Source of the DNA: Deltaproteobacteria bacterium
GTDB lineage: Bacteria > Desulfobacterota > Binatia > DP-6
Direction: 5' to 3'
Assembly: GCA_005879585.1 (NCBI GenBank)
Contig: VBKG01000336.1
Span: 1-38,139 of the forward strand
Length of the DNA: 38,139 nucleotides
Part shown: positions 18,165-31,294 of the stretch, in pieces
Numbering within the stretch: the stretch's first letter is position 1
Layout: each line of letters starts with the position of its first letter
The notes under the pieces: model-generated
Databases searched by the model: none
What the model saw: the letters and a program-made list of their open reading frames with translations, nothing else
What the model was told of the DNA's origin: nothing
Position numbers and translations under genes: made by a program

Positions 18165-19628
18165 TCACGGCTCGCGCGCGGCGGCGACGTGACGCTGCCA
18201 CGCCGCGAAGCGCGTCTCCCGCTCGTCGGCTCCGACGGCCGGCTCGAAGAGACGCTCGCGCCGCCAGACGTCGCGCAGCTCGTCGGTGGTCGCCCACACG
18301 CCGGTCGCGAGACCCGCCAGGTAGCCCGCGCCGAGCGCCCCGGCCTGCAGGACGGCGGGCCGCTCGACAGGCAGGCCGAGCGCGTCGGCCTGGAGCTGGA
18401 GCAGCAGGTCGTTGCACGCCGCTCCCCCGTCGACCCGTAGCGCCACGGGCGGCGCGAACGGGCAATCCGCACGGAGCGCGTCGTACACCTCGCGGCAGCG
18501 CCATGCGATGCCTTCGAGCATCGCGCGGACGACGTGCGCGCGCGTGGTCGCGCGCGACAGGCCGCCGACGACGGCCCGCGCTGCGGCGTCCATGTACGGC
18601 GTACCGAGACCCTGGAAGGCGGGGATCGCCCACACCCCGCCCGCATCCGTCACCGACGCCGCCAGCGTCCCGCTCTCCGTCGGCGTGCGGATGACGCCGA
18701 GCCCGTCCCGGAGCCAGGTGATCGCGGCGCCCGCGGTGATCGCGGTGCCCTCGAGACAGAACGCCACGTGCCCGGCGCGCCGCCAGAGCACGAGCGGGTA
18801 GGCGCCTTGCATCGACCAGAGCGGCTCGGGTCCGGCGTTGAGGTCGAGCATCGCCGAGGTGCCGTAGGTGATCTTCACCTCGCCCGCCGCGAGTCGCAGC
18901 TGGCCCATCATCGCCGCCTGCTGATCGCCGATGACGGCGGCGATCGGGATCGCCGGGAGCCCGAGCGAAGCGTCGACGTGGCCGAGCACGCCCTCCGAAT
19001 CGACGATCTCGGGCAACGCCGCCGCGGGCACGCGGAGCGCGGCGAGGATCGCGTCGTTCCAGCCCCGGCCGACGAGGTCGAACAATCCGCTGCACGAGGC
19101 GTTGGAGGCGTCGGTCGCCGACACCCGACCGCCCGACAGCCGCCACGCGAGCCAGGCGTCGAGCGTGCCGCAGCGGAGGCGTCCGGCGCGGATCCGGTCG
19201 CGATCCGGATCGACGCGGTCGAGGATCCACTCGATCTTCGTGGCGGCCGCGAGCGGGCTCACGAACACGCCCTCGGCGAGCAGGTCCGCGCAGCGGCGAA
19301 TGGTGCGACCGTCCTGCCACGAGATGGCCGGATGGACCGCGCGCCCGGAATCCGCTTCCCATACGACGGCGGTTCCCCGTTGCGTGGCGATCCCGAGCCC
19401 GCGCACGCCGCCGGGTACCGCCGCGAGCGCCTCCGAGAGGACGTCGAGGGTCGCGCGGAAGAGGGTCTCGGGGTCGTGCTCCACCAGGCCCGGCGCCGGG
19501 CAGGCCGGCAGGACCTCGCGATACACCTCGGCCCGCGGCGCGCCCCCGCCGTCCACGAGGAGCGCGCGCACGCCGGTGGTCCCCGCGTCGAGCGCCACCA
19601 CGAAGGACGTCGCCGCCTCTTGACGCAT
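18165..19628 (-). CDS. glpK: Glycerol kinase (FGGY family)
   Basis: 487 residues from the ATG at 19628 with AAGGCGG upstream. FGGY landmarks: VVALDAGTTGVRALLVD (phosphate-binding), GLVEHDPETLF, AISWQDGRT, AAVIGDQQAAMMGQ, KITYGTSAML, PAFQGLGTPYMDAAARA and VDGGAACNDLLLQLQAD. These match glycerol kinase, which phosphorylates glycerol to sn-glycerol-3-phosphate in the cytoplasm. A leftward glpD gene lies 3 kb away. It heads the group with a crotonase and MmgE/PrpD, and is divergent from the DAHP synthase. Length and motif order are normal, though a related FGGY substrate cannot be fully excluded. Confidence 0.9.
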   Translation of the reverse strand: MRQEAATSFVVALDAGTTGVRALLVDGGGAPRAEVYREVLPACPAPGLVEHDPETLFRATLDVLSEALAAVPGGVRGLGIATQRGTAVVWEADSGRAVHPAISWQDGRTIRRCADLLAEGVFVSPLAAATKIEWILDRVDPDRDRIRAGRLRCGTLDAWLAWRLSGGRVSATDASNASCSGLFDLVGRGWNDAILAALRVPAAALPEIVDSEGVLGHVDASLGLPAIPIAAVIGDQQAAMMGQLRLAAGEVKITYGTSAMLDLNAGPEPLWSMQGAYPLVLWRRAGHVAFCLEGTAITAGAAITWLRDGLGVIRTPTESGTLAASVTDAGGVWAIPAFQGLGTPYMDAAARAVVGGLSRATTRAHVVRAMLEGIAWRCREVYDALRADCPFAPPVALRVDGGAACNDLLLQLQADALGLPVERPAVLQAGALGAGYLAGLATGVWATTDELRDVWRRERLFEPAVGADERETRFAAWQRHVAAAREP

Positions 19629-19685: not shown

Positions 19686-20819
19686 ATGCTCGTCAAGATG
19701 CGGCCCGACGCGACCAAGGACGAGGTCGCGGCAGTAGAGAAGAAGCTCCACGGTCTCGGCTACAAGACGGGCAAGCTCGTCGGCACCGAGATCACCCTGA
19801 TCGGCGTGTACGGCGACATCTCGCGCCTTCCCGTGGGCGAGATCGAGGAGCTCGCCGGCGTCGAGCAGCTGATCCCGATCTCCAAGGCGTACAAACGCGC
19901 GGCGCAGAAGGGGGCGCCGGACCGGCCGATCTACCAGGCGGTCCCCATCGGCGGCGTCGTGTGCGGCGGCGAGGACCTGGTGGTCATCGCCGGTCCGTGC
20001 TCGGTCGAGAGCGAGGCGCAGATCATGGAGGCGGCGCGCCTCGTGAAGGAGGCGGGCGCGCAGTGTCTCCGCGGCGGCGTCGTCAAGTATCGCTCGAGCC
20101 CCTACAGCGGGTGGGAAGGTCTCGGCTCGAGCGACACCGAGTCGCTGAAACGCGGCCTTGCGCTGATCGTGAAGGCGGGGCGCGCGTTCGGTCTCCCGAC
20201 CGTCGTCGAGATCCTCGATCCGGGCGACGTGCCCATCTACGAGGACGCCGGCATCGACTGCTTCCAGGTGGGCGAGCCGAACAGCAAGAACCAGGCGTTG
20301 CTGAACCGGCTCCGCACGACGGCGTTGCCCGTGATCCACAAACGCGGCAACTCGCTCGACACCGAGGCGTATCTCCTCTGGGTCGAACGGATCATGACCG
20401 GCGGCAAGGAGAACGTGATCCTCTGCGAGCGGGGCATCGCGAGCGCCACGCGCTACACGCGGAACACGCTCGACATCGGCTCTGTCGCGGCGTTTCACTA
20501 CCAGCTCTCGGGCCTGCCGGTCGCCGTCGACGCGTCGCACGGCACCGGCATCCGCGATCTCGTGCACCCGGCGACGCTCGCCGGCATCATGGCCGGCGCG
20601 TCGATCGTCCTCGTCGAAGCGCACCCGAACCCGCTGATCGCCAAGTCCGACGGCTTCCAGGGACTCTTCCCCGAGCAGCTCCGGACGCTCGTCCGTGCCG
20701 CCCGCGAGACCTGGACGCTACGCCGCCGGCTCGACCGCGAGTACCAGCCCTCGGCCGTGCTCGAGCGGGACTACATGGGCCGGATGCAGGCGGACCGGGA
20801 ACGGCTCTTCAAGTCGTAG
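19686..20819 (+). CDS. Divergent 3-deoxy-7-phosphoheptulonate (DAHP) synthase-like aldolase with N-terminal ferredoxin-like domain
   Basis: 377 residues from the ATG at 19686 with AAGGAGA nine bases upstream. Residues 1-70 form the ferredoxin-like regulatory domain of type I-beta DAHP synthases (MLVKMRPDATKDEVAAVEKKL). The barrel has the metal ligands in place: C105 in GPCSVES, H285 in DASHGTG, E311 in VEAHP and D322 in SDG. Several otherwise conserved motifs differ: KPRTSPY reads KYRSSPY (K134), the GARNMQN phosphate-binding loop reads GEPNSKN (196-202) and loses its arginine, and PSHATG reads ASHGTG. DAHP synthase condenses phosphoenolpyruvate with erythrose-4-phosphate at the head of the shikimate pathway. 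Here the substrate site may be altered. Family firm, substrate uncertain. Confidence 0.85.
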   Translation: MLVKMRPDATKDEVAAVEKKLHGLGYKTGKLVGTEITLIGVYGDISRLPVGEIEELAGVEQLIPISKAYKRAAQKGAPDRPIYQAVPIGGVVCGGEDLVVIAGPCSVESEAQIMEAARLVKEAGAQCLRGGVVKYRSSPYSGWEGLGSSDTESLKRGLALIVKAGRAFGLPTVVEILDPGDVPIYEDAGIDCFQVGEPNSKNQALLNRLRTTALPVIHKRGNSLDTEAYLLWVERIMTGGKENVILCERGIASATRYTRNTLDIGSVAAFHYQLSGLPVAVDASHGTGIRDLVHPATLAGIMAGASIVLVEAHPNPLIAKSDGFQGLFPEQLRTLVRAARETWTLRRRLDREYQPSAVLERDYMGRMQADRERLFKS

Positions 20820-25037: not shown

Positions 25038-25406
25038 TCAATAGCCTAGGCGTCGGATATGCGCATCGTCGAGGCCGAAAAAGTGGGCAATCTCGTGGAT
25101 GACCGTGGTCTGGACCTGGCGCCGGAGCTCGGCCGGCGTCCGGTACCGGCGGAGGAGAGGGCCGGCGAAGATCGTGATGTGGTCCGGCAGGTGTCCGGCG
25201 AAGTCGTGCGGCCGGCTGTGGAGGGGCACGCCCTGGTAGACGCCGTAGAGCGTGTGCCGCTGCGTGTCGAGCCCGAGGTCGCGCAGCAGGCCCGGCGCGG
25301 GCTCGTCCTCGATCACCACGGCGACGTTGTGCAGGTAGGGCGCGAACTCGGCGGGGATCCCGTCGAGGGCGTCGGCGACGAGACTCTCGAACTCCGCGCG
25401 CTCCAT
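25038..25406 (-). CDS. Metallopeptidase family protein (zincin-like, DUF1025 type)
   Basis: 122 residues from the ATG at 25406 (MERAEFESLVADALDGIP), the usual N-terminus of this family; longer starts at 25421 and 25445 exist. NVAVVIEDEP, LYGVYQGVPLHSR and PDHITIFAGPL precede the zinc motif VIHEIAHFFGLDDAHI near the C-terminus. The HExxH is complete. This is a minimal zincin of unknown substrate, predicted to be cytoplasmic. It lies 42 bp downstream of sthA on the same strand. Confidence 0.88.
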   Translation of the reverse strand: MERAEFESLVADALDGIPAEFAPYLHNVAVVIEDEPAPGLLRDLGLDTQRHTLYGVYQGVPLHSRPHDFAGHLPDHITIFAGPLLRRYRTPAELRRQVQTTVIHEIAHFFGLDDAHIRRLGY

Positions 25407-25448
25407 CGATCGCTCGACCATCCCGCCGCGGCGAAGCCCCGTCAAGCT

Positions 25449-26834
25449 TCAGAGGCGATTCAGGCCGTTCAGCGCGGCCACCTTGTAGGCCTCCGACAGC
25501 GTCGGGTAGTTGAAGACGTTGTCGACGAAGTAGTCGACGGGCCCGCCGAAGGCGAGGACCGCCTGGCCGATGTGCACGAGCTCCGCGGCCTTCTCGCCGA
25601 TGATGTGGACGCCACGGAGCCGGTGCGAGGCGCGCTCGAAGAGCAGCTTCAGCATGCCGGCGCGGTCGCCGACGATCTCGCCGCGCGCGATCTCGCGAAA
25701 GAACGCCTGTCCCACCTCGTACGGCACGCAGGCGCGCGTCAGCTGCTCTTCGGTCTCGCCCACCATCGAGATCTCGGGGATGGTGAAGATGCCGTAGGGG
25801 AGCCGCGTGCCCTCGCCGTTCACCGGCACGCCGAAGGCATGCGCCATGGCGAGGCGTCCCTGGTGCATCGACGTGGCGGCGAGGCTCGGGAAGCCGATCA
25901 CGTCGCCGACCGCATACACGTGCGGCACGGCGGTCTGGAAGTGGCCGTTCACCTCGAGCAGCCCCCGACGCCCCGCCCGGAGACCGGCGCTCTCGAGGGC
26001 GAGCCCGCCGGTGTTGCCCTCACGCCCCACGGCGTAGAGGAGCTTCTCGCCGACGACCGCTTTGCCGCTCCGGGTCTCTGCGACGATGCGGTCCGCCGTC
26101 TCGCACCGGACCTCCGCCACCGCCTCGCCGAGACGCAGCGTGATGCCCAGGTCGCGCATGCGCGCGACCAGCAGCTCGGCGATCTCCGCGTCGACGAAGT
26201 CGAGGACGCGGGGGCGCGCGTCGATCAACGTCACCTTGGTGCCGAGCATCGCGAACATGCACGCATACTCGCAGCCGATCACGCCCGCGCCGACGATGGT
26301 GAGCGTACGCGGGACGCGGTCGAGGCGCAGGATCGAGTCGCTGTCGTAGATGCGCTTGTCGTCGAACGGGATCGACGGGTCGCGCGCCGGCCGCGAGCCG
26401 GTGGCGATGACGATGAAGCGGGCGCCGAGCTCGCGCCGTCCACCCTCGCCGTCGAGCACCTCGATCCGGTTCGGGTCGAGAAAGCGCGCCGTGCCGAAGA
26501 CGGCCGTGACGGCGTTGCGATCGAGCTTGTGCTCGAGCACCTCGAGCTGTCCCGCGATGACGGCTTCCTTGCGCCGCATGAGGTCGTCGACGGTGACGTC
26601 CTTCCGGAATGTCGTCTGGATCCCGTACAGCGACCGCTGTTTGACGCCGGCGACGTAGAGGATCGTCTCGCGGAGCGTCTTGCTCGGGATGGTGGCCGTG
26701 TGGAGGCAGTTCCCGCCGAGCGCGCCCGGCCGGTCGACCACCGCGACGCGCTGGCGGACCTTCGCCGCTTGCATGGCGGCCTTCTCGCCGGCCGGCCCCG
26801 AACCGATCACCACGACGTCGAAATCGGAGGACAT
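25449..26834 (-). CDS. sthA: Soluble pyridine nucleotide transhydrogenase
   Basis: 461 residues from the ATG at 26834. It has the FAD-binding Rossmann motif GSGPAGEKAA near 11-20, then GGNCLHTATIPSKTLRE (about 40-56), where the paired redox cysteines of lipoamide dehydrogenases are replaced by a single cysteine. This is the SthA signature. The NAD(P)-binding motif TIVGAGVIGCEYACMFA and HVYAVGDVIGFPSLA follow, and FNYPTLSEAYKVAALNGLNRL closes the chain. It interconverts NADPH and NADH in the cytoplasm. The 183-bp gap upstream separates it divergently from the GAF protein. Length is normal. Confidence 0.93.
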   Translation of the reverse strand: MSSDFDVVVIGSGPAGEKAAMQAAKVRQRVAVVDRPGALGGNCLHTATIPSKTLRETILYVAGVKQRSLYGIQTTFRKDVTVDDLMRRKEAVIAGQLEVLEHKLDRNAVTAVFGTARFLDPNRIEVLDGEGGRRELGARFIVIATGSRPARDPSIPFDDKRIYDSDSILRLDRVPRTLTIVGAGVIGCEYACMFAMLGTKVTLIDARPRVLDFVDAEIAELLVARMRDLGITLRLGEAVAEVRCETADRIVAETRSGKAVVGEKLLYAVGREGNTGGLALESAGLRAGRRGLLEVNGHFQTAVPHVYAVGDVIGFPSLAATSMHQGRLAMAHAFGVPVNGEGTRLPYGIFTIPEISMVGETEEQLTRACVPYEVGQAFFREIARGEIVGDRAGMLKLLFERASHRLRGVHIIGEKAAELVHIGQAVLAFGGPVDYFVDNVFNYPTLSEAYKVAALNGLNRL

Positions 26835-26978
26835 GGATCCCGGGGAGTATCGGCCACGAGCGCGGCGCGCTTGAGGCGCGCGACGAGCCGGGGTGACACG
26901 CGGTTGCCGCCGGCGTCAATTTCTGGACGGTCGACCCGCGGCGCTGCCGCGACGGGCCACGGCACGCGGGCCGGCGGG

Positions 26979-26994
26979 CGGCACACCGGTTGCA
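26979..26994 (+). promoter_or_regulatory. Sigma-54-type promoter of the GAF/coiled-coil/receiver gene
   Basis: CGGCAC (26979-26984), five bases, TTGCA (26990-26994), with GG and GC exactly ten bases apart. Transcription would begin near 27005, giving a short leader that contains GAGGT seven bases before the ATG at 27018. It differs from the consensus only at the first base. The TTGCA half and the CCGG before it are the same as in the promoter at 15496-15511. Confidence 0.5.
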
Positions 26995-27017
26995 CCCCGG
27001 CTCCCGAGGTCCAGACC

Positions 27018-29687
27018 ATGCCGATGTTCCGCAAGCGTCGAGCGCGGCCGGGCGCTGTGACCGCCGAGACGCCGAGGGCCGTCCGCGCGCGGCCCCCGGG
27101 CCTCGCGGAGCGTCTGGCGCAGATCGCGGCCGAGGCGGCGCCGGAGGAGGCGCTCGAGCCGGCGCTGCGCGCGCTGCTCGAGGAGAGCGGTGCGCACGCC
27201 GGCGCGCTCTGTCTCTACGACCCCCGGCAGAACGTCCTCCGCCTGGCAGCGGAGATCGGCCTCTCGGACGAAGGATGTCGGCGGCTCCGAACGGTCCGCC
27301 GCGGCGACCCCGCGGCGTGGGACATGCCGCTCCACGGGCTCATGAACGGCCGCGCGTATCTGATCGAGAGCGCCGCGCGCAATCGATACGTGCCGCGGCT
27401 GGTGGAAGCGGCGGCGTCGGTGCGCACGATCGCCTGCGTGCCGCTGAACGCCGGGCCGGCACCGGTCGGCAGCCTGATCCTCGTTGCGACCGCGCCGCGC
27501 TCGTTTGGAGAGCGCGACGTCCGTGCGCTGGAGCCCGTGCTCGGCGATCTGGCCGCGATGATCGAGTCGACGCGCCGGCACCGGCGCCGCACCGAGATGG
27601 CGGAAGCCGCTGCCGTCGTCCCGACCGCCGGCATGGCCGCGGCTCGCGACCAGCTCCTGGCCGACCACGAGCGGCTCGCAGCCGAGATCGCGGCGCGGAC
27701 GGCCGAGGTCGAGCGCCTCGGAAGCGCCCTCGATGCGGCGGCCGCCGACCGCGCCCGGCTCGCGGCGGACCTCACCGGGGTGCGGCGCATGGCCGAGCAG
27801 GTGACGCCGCTCACGGCCGCGCTCGCCGAGGCAGAGCGTGCGCGGGCGCGGCTCGCCGAGGCGCTCGGCAGCGCGGCGACCGAGCGCAGCGAGCAGGCGC
27901 GCGGGCTCGCCGCGATCGAGGCCGGCGCGGCCGAGGCGCGCCAGCTCGCGGACGCGGCGCGCGCCGAGCTCGCGTCGGCCCGCCAGACGGGGGCGGAGGC
28001 GGCGGCGGCCGCCGCCGCGCGCCACACCGAGCAGCAACGGCAGGTCGAGGCGTTGGCGGCACGGCTGGCCGACGCGGAGGAGGCGGCGGCGCGACGGGTC
28101 GCGGCGGCGCGTGAGCGCGAGCGGACGCACGAGCAGGCCGCGGAGGAGCTCCGCACGACGCTCGCGCAGGAGCGCCGCCTGCGCGAGGAGCGGGAGGCGG
28201 CTGCACGCGGCGCGAGCGCCGGGCAGACGGTGGCCGCGGACGACGCCGCGCGTGCGCTTGCCGCGGCCACCAGCGACGCCGCGGCGGTGCGCGCCGAGCT
28301 CGCGGGAAGCGCGCACGTCATCGAAGCGCTCGAGGACGAAGCGGCGCGCGCGCAGGCGGAGATCCTGAAGCTCGAAGCCGCGCTCACGACTGCCACCGAC
28401 GAGCGCGCACGGTTCGAGGATGCGCTCGGGGAGACGGCCGCCCGGCTCGACGAGGCGCGGCAGCGCCACGACCGGCTCGACGGCGAGGTCGGCCGCCTGC
28501 GCCGCGAGCTCACCAACACGACCGCCGCCGGTCGCGAGCGGCACGCCGACGCGGCCCGCGTGGCCGCGCAGCTCGAGGGCCTCGCGGCCGAGCGCGACCG
28601 GTTTCGCGAGTCCGTCGCCGCGCTCGAGGCCGAGCGCGACCGTCTGGCGGCCGAGGCGACGGCGCGCGCCGGCCTCGACGAGGCGCTGGGGCGCGAGCGC
28701 GCCGAGCGGTCGCGTCTCGCCGCGGCGCTCGCCGAGGCCGAGGGCACGCGCGCTGCGCTCGAGGCAGCCCACGCGCGGCAGGCGGCCGACGCCGCAGCCC
28801 GCGTCGCGACGCTCGAGCGCGAGATCGAGCGCCTCGCGGAGGCGCGGACCACCGGGGACACGCCAGTCGCCGAGCCGGCGCATGATGCCAGCGCGCCCCC
28901 GATGCGGGTCGTCACGGTGGGCTCCAGCCGGGCGCGGGCCGGGACCGGCGAGCTGCGCATCGTCGTGCTCGATGCGGACGCCGCATGGGAGTCGGCCGGC
29001 AAAGGAGGCGAGGACATCGTCGTCCTCGCGCCCGGCGAGAACCTGGCGGCGCGCGTAACCGAGATCGCGCCGTCCCGCGTGGTGGCGAATCTCGCGGCTC
29101 CGGGCGCGCTGACCGCCCTCTACGGCTTGCGGGCCAGTGGCTGCACCGCGAGCTTCTGGGGTTGCGTCGTGAGGGGCGGCGAAGAGCGCGGTCTTGCGCT
29201 CGGCACGATCGAGGCGTCGCGGTGTCCGCTCGATCCCGACGCGATCATCGCGTCGCTGGGCACGCACGTCGGGCGCGGGACACGCGTTCTCACCGCCGGC
29301 ACCGACGTGGACGCGCTCATGAGCCTTCGCCAGGCGCTCGCACGACTGGGCGCCGCCGTGTCGATGGCGTGGGACGGCAAGCAGGCGGCGGACCTCCTCA
29401 CCGTCGTCCAGCCCGAGGTAGTGGTCGTCGACCTCGGGCTCACGCGTCGCGACGGCTACCTCATCACGACGAAGCTCGGCGAGCTCGAGACGATCCCCCA
29501 CGCGGTGCTCGTCGAATGTGCCGGTGACACGGCGGAATCGTTCGCGGCGATGCTCGCCAACCCGGGGACGGTGGCACGCACGAAGCCGCTCGACCGTTTG
29601 CTGACGGATATCCTGATGCGCGAAGAGCCCGAGCCGGCGCACCAGCGGCGCCCGAAGATGCGCGCCGTCGGCCTGACCCGGAAGTAG
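27018..29687 (+). CDS. GAF domain - long coiled coil - receiver-like signalling protein
   Basis: 889 residues from the ATG at 27018 with GAGGT upstream. Residues about 30-190 form a GAF domain (LRALLEESGAHAGALCLYDPRQN, ACVPLNAGPAPVGSLILVA). From about 205 to 625 there is a continuous, alanine- and glutamate-rich coiled coil. The C-terminal 130 residues contain a receiver fold: TRVLTAGTDVDALMSLRQALARLG and VVVVDLGLTRRDGYLI with a candidate phospho-acceptor D805. Between lies a domain (about 640-755) I do not recognise. No membrane segment is present. It converges on the hybrid kinase gene four bases away and may be its signalling partner. The coiled coil suggests a structural or polar-localised role, by analogy only. 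Confidence 0.8.
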   Translation: MPMFRKRRARPGAVTAETPRAVRARPPGLAERLAQIAAEAAPEEALEPALRALLEESGAHAGALCLYDPRQNVLRLAAEIGLSDEGCRRLRTVRRGDPAAWDMPLHGLMNGRAYLIESAARNRYVPRLVEAAASVRTIACVPLNAGPAPVGSLILVATAPRSFGERDVRALEPVLGDLAAMIESTRRHRRRTEMAEAAAVVPTAGMAAARDQLLADHERLAAEIAARTAEVERLGSALDAAAADRARLAADLTGVRRMAEQVTPLTAALAEAERARARLAEALGSAATERSEQARGLAAIEAGAAEARQLADAARAELASARQTGAEAAAAAAARHTEQQRQVEALAARLADAEEAAARRVAAARERERTHEQAAEELRTTLAQERRLREEREAAARGASAGQTVAADDAARALAAATSDAAAVRAELAGSAHVIEALEDEAARAQAEILKLEAALTTATDERARFEDALGETAARLDEARQRHDRLDGEVGRLRRELTNTTAAGRERHADAARVAAQLEGLAAERDRFRESVAALEAERDRLAAEATARAGLDEALGRERAERSRLAAALAEAEGTRAALEAAHARQAADAAARVATLEREIERLAEARTTGDTPVAEPAHDASAPPMRVVTVGSSRARAGTGELRIVVLDADAAWESAGKGGEDIVVLAPGENLAARVTEIAPSRVVANLAAPGALTALYGLRASGCTASFWGCVVRGGEERGLALGTIEASRCPLDPDAIIASLGTHVGRGTRVLTAGTDVDALMSLRQALARLGAAVSMAWDGKQAADLLTVVQPEVVVVDLGLTRRDGYLITTKLGELETIPHAVLVECAGDTAESFAAMLANPGTVARTKPLDRLLTDILMREEPEPAHQRRPKMRAVGLTRK

Positions 29688-29691
29688 CTCC

Positions 29692-31173
29692 TCAGCTCGC
29701 CGCCGCCGGCGCGTGAATCGCGGCGATCAGTGCCTCGGGGTCGATCGGCTTCTCGAACACCAGGTCGGCGCCGCGCGCCTGCGCCTCGCCCGCGCTCAGC
29801 TGCGCGCCCCAGCCCGAGACCAGGACGACGAGCGTGTCCGGCGATTGGTCCTTGACGGCGCGTGTGATGTCCCACCCGGGCCGATCGGGCAGCCCGACGT
29901 CGGTCACGACGAGTGCGAACCGCTCGGTCGCGAGCGCCGCGAGCGCCTCGCTCACCGTACTCGCACGCGCGACGTCGTAGCCCTCCTGCGCGAGCAGATC
30001 GGCCGTCGCCTCGCGCACCGTGAGGTGGTCGTCGACGACGAGCGCGCGACCGAGCGCACGCCCGGCGCGGTCGCCGCGGGCGCGCCACGCGAGCACGGGC
30101 GGCTCGGCCGTGGGAAGGGAGAGGCAGACGGCGGTGCCGCGGCCGGGCTCCGACTCGATGAAGACGGAGCCGCCGTGGGTGCGGACGATGCCGTACACGG
30201 TGCTGAGCCCGAGGCCGGAGCTCGCCGGGTGCGTGGTGAAGAACGGGTCGAACGCCCGGTGGCACTCCTCGGGGGTCATGCCGCGGCCGGTGTCGCGGAT
30301 CGCGACGCGCACCTCGCCGCCGCTCTCGACGGCCGACACCTCGATCGCGCCGCCCTCCGGCATGGCCTCGAGTGCGTTCAGGAGGACGTTCAGGAAGGCC
30401 TCGCTCAGCTTGCTGCGGTTGCCGGCGACCTCCGGCAACGGGTCGATCGACACCTGCAGCCGAACGGGGCGCCCTTCGTGCAGGATGCGCGACTCGAGCA
30501 GCTGGACGACGTCGCGCAGGACCGGGGCGATGTCGAGGCGCTCCATGCGCCCACCGTCGTCGCGCGCGAACGTGACGAGCCGGCGTGTGTAGCCGTGACC
30601 CGTGTCGACCGCCTGCTTGATGGCCCCGAGCGACCGACCGACGGCCTCGGGAAGGCCGGGTTGGCGGCGCAGCGCCGCGACGTGCAGGCCGATCGCTTGG
30701 AGGATGTTGCCGAACTCGTGTGCCACCTCGCCGGCAAGCTCACCGAGCGCCGTCAGGTGCTGCGTCTGGCTGAGGCCGGTGGACGCGTCGCCGACCGTCC
30801 GGTCCCGCTCGTCGGGCGGCCGCGCCTGCTCGGGCGACTCCCAGGTCTCGTGCGAGGCGACGACGAGGAGGCAGCCCGCGGCACCGCTGCCCAGCGCCAA
30901 CGCGCGGACGGCTGACGGCCGCGCCTCCCTGGCGCTCCGGAGCGTCGCGGCAACCGGTCCGGCCGCGCCATTCCCTGCCGCCGCTTCGAGCAGTGGACCG
31001 AGGACGTGACCGTCCGCGATCAGGTCCCTCAGCGGACGGCCCGTCATGTCGCGCCGCGCCATGCCGAGCGCGCCTTCTGCGGCATCGCTGCACGAGATGA
31101 CCCGCATCTCCGCGTCGACGACCCACGCGGGATCGCGGAACGGCAGGGAAGCGTCGGATGGCGAAAGCGTCAT
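29692..31173 (-). CDS. Hybrid sensor histidine kinase (PAS-HisKA-HATPase-REC)
   Basis: 493 residues from the ATG at 31173 (GTG 31176 is an alternative). Order: PAS-like domain (about 10-110), a HisKA dimerisation helix with GELAGEVAHEFGNIL (phospho-acceptor H152), then NRSKLSEAFLNVLLNALEAMP and DTGRGMTPEE...SSGLGLSTVYGIVRTHGG as N, G1 and G2 boxes of the ATPase, and a C-terminal receiver (ALVVDDHLTVRE, VVTDVGLPDRPGWD with D425). It has no membrane segment, so it is probably a soluble sensor. It is convergent with the GAF/receiver protein and divergent from the ferritin-like genes. The output is not encoded adjacent to it. Confidence 0.92.
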   Translation of the reverse strand: MTLSPSDASLPFRDPAWVVDAEMRVISCSDAAEGALGMARRDMTGRPLRDLIADGHVLGPLLEAAAGNGAAGPVAATLRSAREARPSAVRALALGSGAAGCLLVVASHETWESPEQARPPDERDRTVGDASTGLSQTQHLTALGELAGEVAHEFGNILQAIGLHVAALRRQPGLPEAVGRSLGAIKQAVDTGHGYTRRLVTFARDDGGRMERLDIAPVLRDVVQLLESRILHEGRPVRLQVSIDPLPEVAGNRSKLSEAFLNVLLNALEAMPEGGAIEVSAVESGGEVRVAIRDTGRGMTPEECHRAFDPFFTTHPASSGLGLSTVYGIVRTHGGSVFIESEPGRGTAVCLSLPTAEPPVLAWRARGDRAGRALGRALVVDDHLTVREATADLLAQEGYDVARASTVSEALAALATERFALVVTDVGLPDRPGWDITRAVKDQSPDTLVVLVSGWGAQLSAGEAQARGADLVFEKPIDPEALIAAIHAPAAAS

Positions 31174-31294
31174 CACGTCACCAAGTGGGCCTATATCACG
31201 TCTTTACGCCATGCCTTCTCAGTAGGTCAATCCCTTTGACAAGGGTAAAACAGCGATTTGACAGATTCGCGTACGACCCGTAGGGTGCGACCGG
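31174..31294. promoter_or_regulatory. AT-richer divergent promoter region with two TTTGACA boxes and a CCCTT-TGAC-AAGGG palindrome
   Basis: For the rightward gene, TTGACA (31258-31263), 17 bp, TAGGGT (31281-31286) end eight bases before the ATG at 31295. A second TTGACA (31236-31241) lies inside the inverted repeat CCCTT-TGAC-AAGGG (31232-31245), a likely operator. For the leftward kinase, TTGACC with a TAAAGA box 18 bp on is possible. The region is visibly lower in GC than its surroundings. Confidence 0.5.

Follow-up and report, generated by a model that had tools for sequence, protein, structure and literature searches.

Can an enzyme built like a DAHP synthase, missing an arginine that binds the phosphate of phosphoenolpyruvate (PEP), still make DAHP, or has its active site been turned to another substrate? 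DAHP formation is the entry step of aromatic amino acid biosynthesis. The question is raised by a gene in a 38,139-nt contig of a Deltaproteobacteria bacterium (the window; C460 in our set), from a genome of 5.28 Mb that is 99% complete. A first-pass annotation had proposed a DAHP-synthase-like enzyme with an altered substrate pocket, perhaps a paralogue acting on a different sugar phosphate or in a secondary-metabolite branch.

A type I-beta-like fold below annotation cut-offs

The gene and its two domains are placed as follows.

19686..20819, + strand: variant type I-beta-like DAHP synthase gene, 377 aa (ORF, Pfam, alignment)
19686..19886, + strand: N-terminal ferredoxin-like (FL) domain, residues 1-67 (PF18152, 52.4 bits, cut-off 27)
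19956..20711, + strand: catalytic (beta/alpha)8 barrel, residues 91-342 (PF00793; AlphaFold2; Foldseek)

In the T. maritima enzyme, the FL domain is a regulatory domain. The window protein matches Pfam DAHP_synth_1 (PF00793) at 151 bits, above the gathering cut-off of 25.5, and DAHP_snth_FXD (PF18152) at 52 bits, and it falls short of each NCBIfam threshold for a DAHP or KDO8P synthase. Its best NCBIfam score is to PRK08673 (293.6 bits, cut-off 335); TIGR01361 gives 219.3 bits (cut-off 267.75), and the KDO8P synthase models TIGR01362 and PRK05198 give 60.9 (cut-off 314) and 61.6 bits (cut-off 242). The BagF/FevY family of DAHP synthases (NF041229) has the same fold and, by annotation, the same reaction class, but the window protein scores 209 bits there against a cut-off of 700.

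Among solved structures, the T. maritima DAHP synthase 1RZM is closest in sequence (E 6e-54). An AlphaFold2 model (36-row alignment; mean pLDDT 89.5, pTM 0.79) is confident apart from residues 137-147, a loop beside erythrose 4-phosphate (E4P), and its best Foldseek matches are 4GRS, a chimeric DAH7PS, and 1RZM. With 1RZM the protein shares the fold, the FL domain, the metal ligands, the PEP residues R126/K131/K207/R237 and the E4P residue R133 (Tm numbers); it differs by P132Y, T134S, R186P, Q189K, L206H, N229K and P270A, by a longer loop after SPY and by about 35 extra C-terminal residues.

Active-site changes are fixed in the family

Residues were compared in an alignment that sets 28 rows of the family beside 31 canonical I-beta, 15 'GLCAVD', 42 AroG and 17 KdsA rows, together with motif counts over 32 distinct family proteins.

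19998..20000, + strand: metal ligand C105, column kept across the family (alignment)
20085..20120, + strand: KYRSSPYSGWEG, residues 134-145; K134 and R136 kept; low-confidence loop 137-147 in the model (alignment, model, motif counts)
20271..20291, + strand: GEPNSKN, residues 196-202; PEP-phosphate Arg lost (P198), K201 gained (alignment, motif counts; role of the Arg from PMC6362186 and PMC6435475)
20337..20348, + strand: HKRG, residues 218-221; H218 only in the family, K219 kept (alignment)
20424..20435, + strand: CERG, residues 247-250; R249 (Tm R237) kept (alignment)
20529..20549, + strand: DASHGTG, residues 282-288; metal ligand H285; A283 for Pro, as in KdsA (alignment, motif counts)
20616..20651, + strand: metal ligands E311 and D322 (alignment)

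The metal site is intact, as first annotated: C105, H285, E311 and D322 align with Tm C102, H272, E298 and D309 of 1RZM, and R129, K134, R136, K219 and R249 are likewise conserved in the family. The surrounding loops have changed, with KYRSSPYSGW in the window for KPRTSPY-F, GEPNSKN for GARNMQN and DASH for DPSH. Relative to canonical enzymes, KYRSSPYSGWEG has Tyr for Pro at 135, Ser for Thr at 137, an inserted Gly and Trp-Glu for Phe-Gln, and the loop after KYRSSPY is lengthened by about seven residues in addition to this Gly, which stands at 142. The pattern KYRSSPYSGWEG[LIV]G was found in 32/32 distinct family proteins, all of which carry KYRS where type I-beta enzymes have KPR(T/S). The GARN arginine is absent from all 32 as well (Pro in 31, giving GEPN, and Val in 1, giving GEVN), and each has Lys or Arg at position 201; the full motif reads GEPNSKN in 18, GEPNAKN in 7, GEPNSRN in 6 and GEVNSKN in 1. 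All 31 canonical I-beta rows have Gln in the 201 column, and further changes against them, besides Q201K, are L218H and N241K; the first-pass annotation had not remarked on these three or on the lengthened loop. Two of the loop changes in the first-pass annotation, KPRTSPY to KYRSSPY and GARNMQN to GEPNSKN with loss of the phosphate-binding arginine, are thereby borne out. The third, PSHATG to ASHGTG, stands in part: in our alignment only the Pro-to-Ala change is diagnostic, and the change of T/A to G is ordinary, with Gly in 38% of canonical I-beta rows. Judged by these alignments, the protein is a real, conserved active-site variant.

Several of the changed positions match KDO8P synthase (KdsA) and so might point to a longer sugar. 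PEP aldol chemistry would be common to the two, and both lack Arg at 198 and have a basic residue at 201 and Ala at 283; the window protein differs in having KYRSSPY and EPNSKN in place of KANRSS and CRQTD, and in missing the longer KdsA loop after the histidine. In KdsA, every row that is not cut at these columns carries Phe at 198 and Arg at 201, and this Arg we take to be R106 by Aquifex numbering. Structures of R106G KDO8P synthase with PEP, and with PEP and A5P, are in the PDB by title; our search of the open literature found no paper on R106G with KDO8P.

PMC6362186 places the PEP site of a characterised I-beta enzyme at R60, K65, S119, R120, K141 and R171, and its E4P site at R67, T68 and D243. 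It calls R120, the GARN arginine, a completely conserved PEP site, which counts against a DAHP synthase here, where the aligned residue is Pro198. In a type II enzyme, according to PMC6435475, the ligands of the PEP phosphate are Arg218, another Arg, a Lys and a backbone N; by motif order, this Arg218 would correspond to the GARN position of I-beta enzymes. For KDO8P synthase, docking and simulation in PMC6650799 have the PEP phosphate held by Lys133/Arg163 and the metal-site His and, within the sugar pocket, Phe112 touching an inhibitor; there is thus a precedent for this PEP chemistry in an enzyme that has no GARN arginine. Among the DAHP synthase active-site papers listed from the open collection, none was visibly on the present variant, and the available part of the Binatota genome paper (PMC8262859) does not mention DAHP, shikimate or peptidoglycan.

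An old clade beside ordinary type I-beta enzymes

Phylogenetic placement, a check proposed in the first-pass annotation, used a 144-row tree (31 family, 54 I-beta and 15 GLCAVD rows among them, with 2 KdsA rows kept). The family forms a single 31-row clade (support 0.998), sister to the canonical I-beta plus GLCAVD rows (joint node 0.882), and groups with I-beta rather than with AroG or with KdsA, which lies outside the I-beta clade. The altered pocket is thus fixed in a clade. Its stem is long, at 0.56 substitutions per site, and the same class also contains canonical I-beta enzymes, so the lineage is old and did not arise by a recent mutation. The family gene is under purifying selection, with dN/dS of ~0.07 against the closest relative (94% identical) and 0.08-0.31 against more distant relatives, where dS is partly saturated or composition-biased. 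Relatives carry the record labels Candidatus Binatia/Binatota, Deltaproteobacteria and others. The plasmid collection held no close relative, all 59 matched records being under 60% identity. In one relative (L014:8001-9106), the family gene is broken by an apparent frameshift, seen as two overlapping tblastn pieces and possibly a sequencing error.

Two other groups came to light in this survey. The I-beta-like 'GLCAVD' group of other Binatia families (L147-L160, L166) shares the N-terminal domain and barrel but keeps KPRTSPY and GTRN. Its members (e.g. G493, G056, G467, G472, G497) have GLCAVD, GTRNAQN and DPSHSVG motifs and Asp for the third metal ligand Glu (15/15 rows), and, as with the family studied here, theirs is apparently the sole DAHP synthase in several genomes, among them several that are 97-100% complete. 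Three Acidimicrobiia proteins (L035, L036, L038) are I-beta-like barrels with a C-terminal extension and the motifs K[IV][RT]RSPY, GASNMQN or GAQSMQN, and GEQG; in these too the GARN arginine is missing, and the second PEP arginine is replaced by Gln.

DAHP synthases in genomes that carry the variant

Besides the variant, the window's genome encodes KdsA (L002) and an AroG-type (I-alpha) DAHP synthase that is complete (L001). The variant is thus a paralogue there, as had been suggested, and the search for a canonical aroF/G/H gene is answered by L001. No type II DAHP synthase was detected in this genome (0/1) or in relatives (0/18), ruling out a type II enzyme as a hidden second DAHP synthase in these genomes. 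Across the class (148 genomes), 27 match the variant at E <= 1e-140, with G514 contributing a fragment besides. Another DAHP synthase is present in 22 of the 27, a count made up of 21 genomes whose PF00793 match reaches E <= 1e-77 (sequence-typed in part) and G424, which has a partial AroG (L214); the variant is therefore often not needed for DAHP. The other five are G092 (100% complete), G360 (99%), G463 (82%) and, provisionally, G462 (80%) and G422 (88%). In G092 and G360, the only PF00793 proteins are KdsA and the variant, and the type II enzyme is absent. Elsewhere in the class, G448 and G451 (94-96% complete) have PF00793 scores only in the KdsA range and, at 1e-20, no match to the window protein; such genomes may have no DAHP synthase at all, or one from outside these families.

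The variant also occurs in a second phylum. Of the 84 genomes in the phylum of G406 (record labelled Poribacteria), 80 have a PF00793 protein. By sequence, the variant is the sole such protein in G406, G549, G550 and G552, and G548 pairs it with a KdsA-like protein, so all 5 variant-bearing genomes are without another DAHP synthase. The phylum's other 79 genomes include 75 in which a different PF00793 protein is present. The loci fetched from this group, 30 in number, all look like ordinary DAHP synthases (L177 and L185 typed by eye from motifs) except L186, a KdsA in a genome with further matches, and loci beyond the 30 were judged by score alone. All the genomes are draft or metagenome-derived, so an absent second enzyme may be an assembly gap, and our completeness values are those of the class genomes.

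AroB (TIGR01357) and chorismate synthase were present in 9/9 genomes tested, including G000, G092, G360, G405 and, as the one representative of the five variant-bearing genomes of its phylum, G406. A variant that is the sole homologue in a genome equipped with both of these enzymes is most simply read as the source of DAHP. The first-pass annotation had held that its reading would fail were this the only DAHP synthase in the genome: that is not so in the window's genome, but the variant is the sole detectable DAHP synthase in the relatives G092 and G360 and the five genomes of the other phylum. The suggestion of a different sugar phosphate is accordingly disfavoured.

Neighbouring genes and a peptidoglycan recycling cluster

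In the window, the gene is flanked by glycerol-kinase-like, GlpD-like, FAD oxidase, enoyl-CoA hydratase and MmgE/PrpD genes, the kinase among them being divergent.

18165..19617, - strand: FGGY kinase, glycerol-kinase-like; also adjoins the gene in 5/5 other same-family genomes

The kinase and MmgE/PrpD neighbours are both kept in those five (L014, L162, L165, L172, L173). Erythritol catabolism, as a local E4P source through the FGGY kinase and GlpD-like oxidoreductase, was considered and rejected because the kinase scores best as a glycerol kinase, under both cut-offs (448.6 against 498; 442.6 against 590). Further along the window, a 1542-residue ORF in which one GAF domain was recognised (25059-29687, +) lies beside a hybrid histidine kinase/response regulator ORF (29692-31176, -).

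In 15 of 28 genomes inspected, the gene heads a cluster of ldcA, a beta-lactamase-fold gene and mpl, with the order on one strand being enzyme gene, S66 LD-carboxypeptidase, beta-lactamase-fold protein and Mur ligase. These 15 comprise 13 of 15 long-match relatives (L004-L018 minus L014 and L015) plus L170 and L171. In 13 of the 15, ~3-25 nt separate the enzyme gene from the start of the LD-carboxypeptidase gene; in L170 and L171 the spacing is greater or uncertain. A convergent soluble lytic transglycosylase lies past the cluster in 11. In L010, the beta-lactamase-fold protein has PBP4B as its best NCBIfam match, under the cut-off, and the Mur ligase narrowly exceeds the Mpl cut-off (389.9 against 388.7). 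LdcA and Mpl are ~46-53% identical between families, and the cluster is nonetheless kept. The gene is not adjacent to it in the other 13 genomes (G000, G463, G464, G465, G461, G092, G476, G529, G406, G549, G550, G552, G548; L206 of G550 ends shortly past the gene and covers adjacency in part), and in G000 (L168) and G092 (L167) the ldcA-bla-mpl set stands elsewhere, without the enzyme gene. One reading of the link is that a housekeeping enzyme shares the operon; another is that it hints at a different substrate, possibly another sugar. We found no paper in the open collection joining DAHP synthase with peptidoglycan recycling, nor, among the matches listed, one pairing 3-deoxy-7-phosphoheptulonate synthase with LD-carboxypeptidase or Mpl.

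No secondary-metabolite cluster was seen around the gene in the window or the relatives inspected, and the linked genes in relatives belong to peptidoglycan recycling. The proposed secondary-metabolite branch is not supported; the enzyme is most likely a functional DAHP synthase.

Function of the variant

We consider it likely that the variant is a working DAHP synthase (PEP + erythrose 4-phosphate -> DAHP + phosphate) of a deep type I-beta sub-clade with a rebuilt phosphate pocket, its substrate being assigned from genome content and conserved residues. For this speak the retained metal and most substrate residues, purifying selection and the status of sole homologue in several genomes. In such an enzyme, R129, K134 and K219 would contact the carboxylate and phosphate of PEP and R249 its phosphate, with R136 and D322 contacting E4P. 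K219, R249 and the E197 backbone would grip the PEP phosphate in the manner of KDO8P synthase, and K/R201 may make up for the charge of the lost arginine. In the window's organism, it would be a second DAHP synthase beside AroG, probably under different regulation. What DAHP synthesis does not account for is the linkage to peptidoglycan recycling genes.

The same residues can be read as a PEP aldol synthase on a DAHP synthase scaffold for another aldose phosphate, for example a pentose phosphate, as in KDO8P synthase. Such an enzyme would fit the KdsA-like lack of Arg198, the basic 201, Ala283 before SH, a Ser after the E4P arginine, the longer loop after KYRSSPY and the second DAHP synthase in 22/27 class genomes. 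We regard it as unlikely: G092, G360 and G406 would then possess AroB and chorismate synthase but no source of DAHP, the KdsA signatures KANRSS and CRQTD and the longer post-histidine loop are missing, and KdsA is already encoded in the window's own genome, G092 and G360. It is rather improbable, too, that the clade acts on a sugar that is not E4P alone, with a KDO8P-synthase-like phosphate pocket on the DAHP scaffold and possibly a sugar phosphate from peptidoglycan recycling; if true, wall recycling would be coupled to aromatic synthesis or to the making of a new 3-deoxy-ulosonate.

A role within recycling itself, with PEP condensed with a recycled amino-sugar phosphate or the latter processed in some other way, draws on the 15/28 clusters, their short gaps in 13 and their retention despite LdcA/Mpl divergence. 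The enzyme is unlinked, however, in the window's family, G476, G529 and the other phylum, the ldcA-mpl cluster occurs without it in G000 and G092, and operons often combine genes of unrelated pathways; we hold this role to be very unlikely. A catalytically weak or regulatory pseudo-enzyme, for instance a partner of AroG, would explain both the lost PEP-binding arginine and the AroG found alongside in many genomes, but it is the most improbable of these readings given four conserved metal ligands, most substrate residues conserved, purifying selection, and several genomes with the variant as sole homologue.

If the variant is a working DAHP synthase, a GARN-less clade apparently alone in the pathway in some genomes would show how a PEP-phosphate site can be rebuilt, and would shed light on the DAHP/KDO8P branch switch in the superfamily. 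Annotation cut-offs and motif rules would then be seen to overlook real DAHP synthases, and the recurring ldcA/mpl cluster suggests a putative tie of wall recycling with aromatic synthesis.
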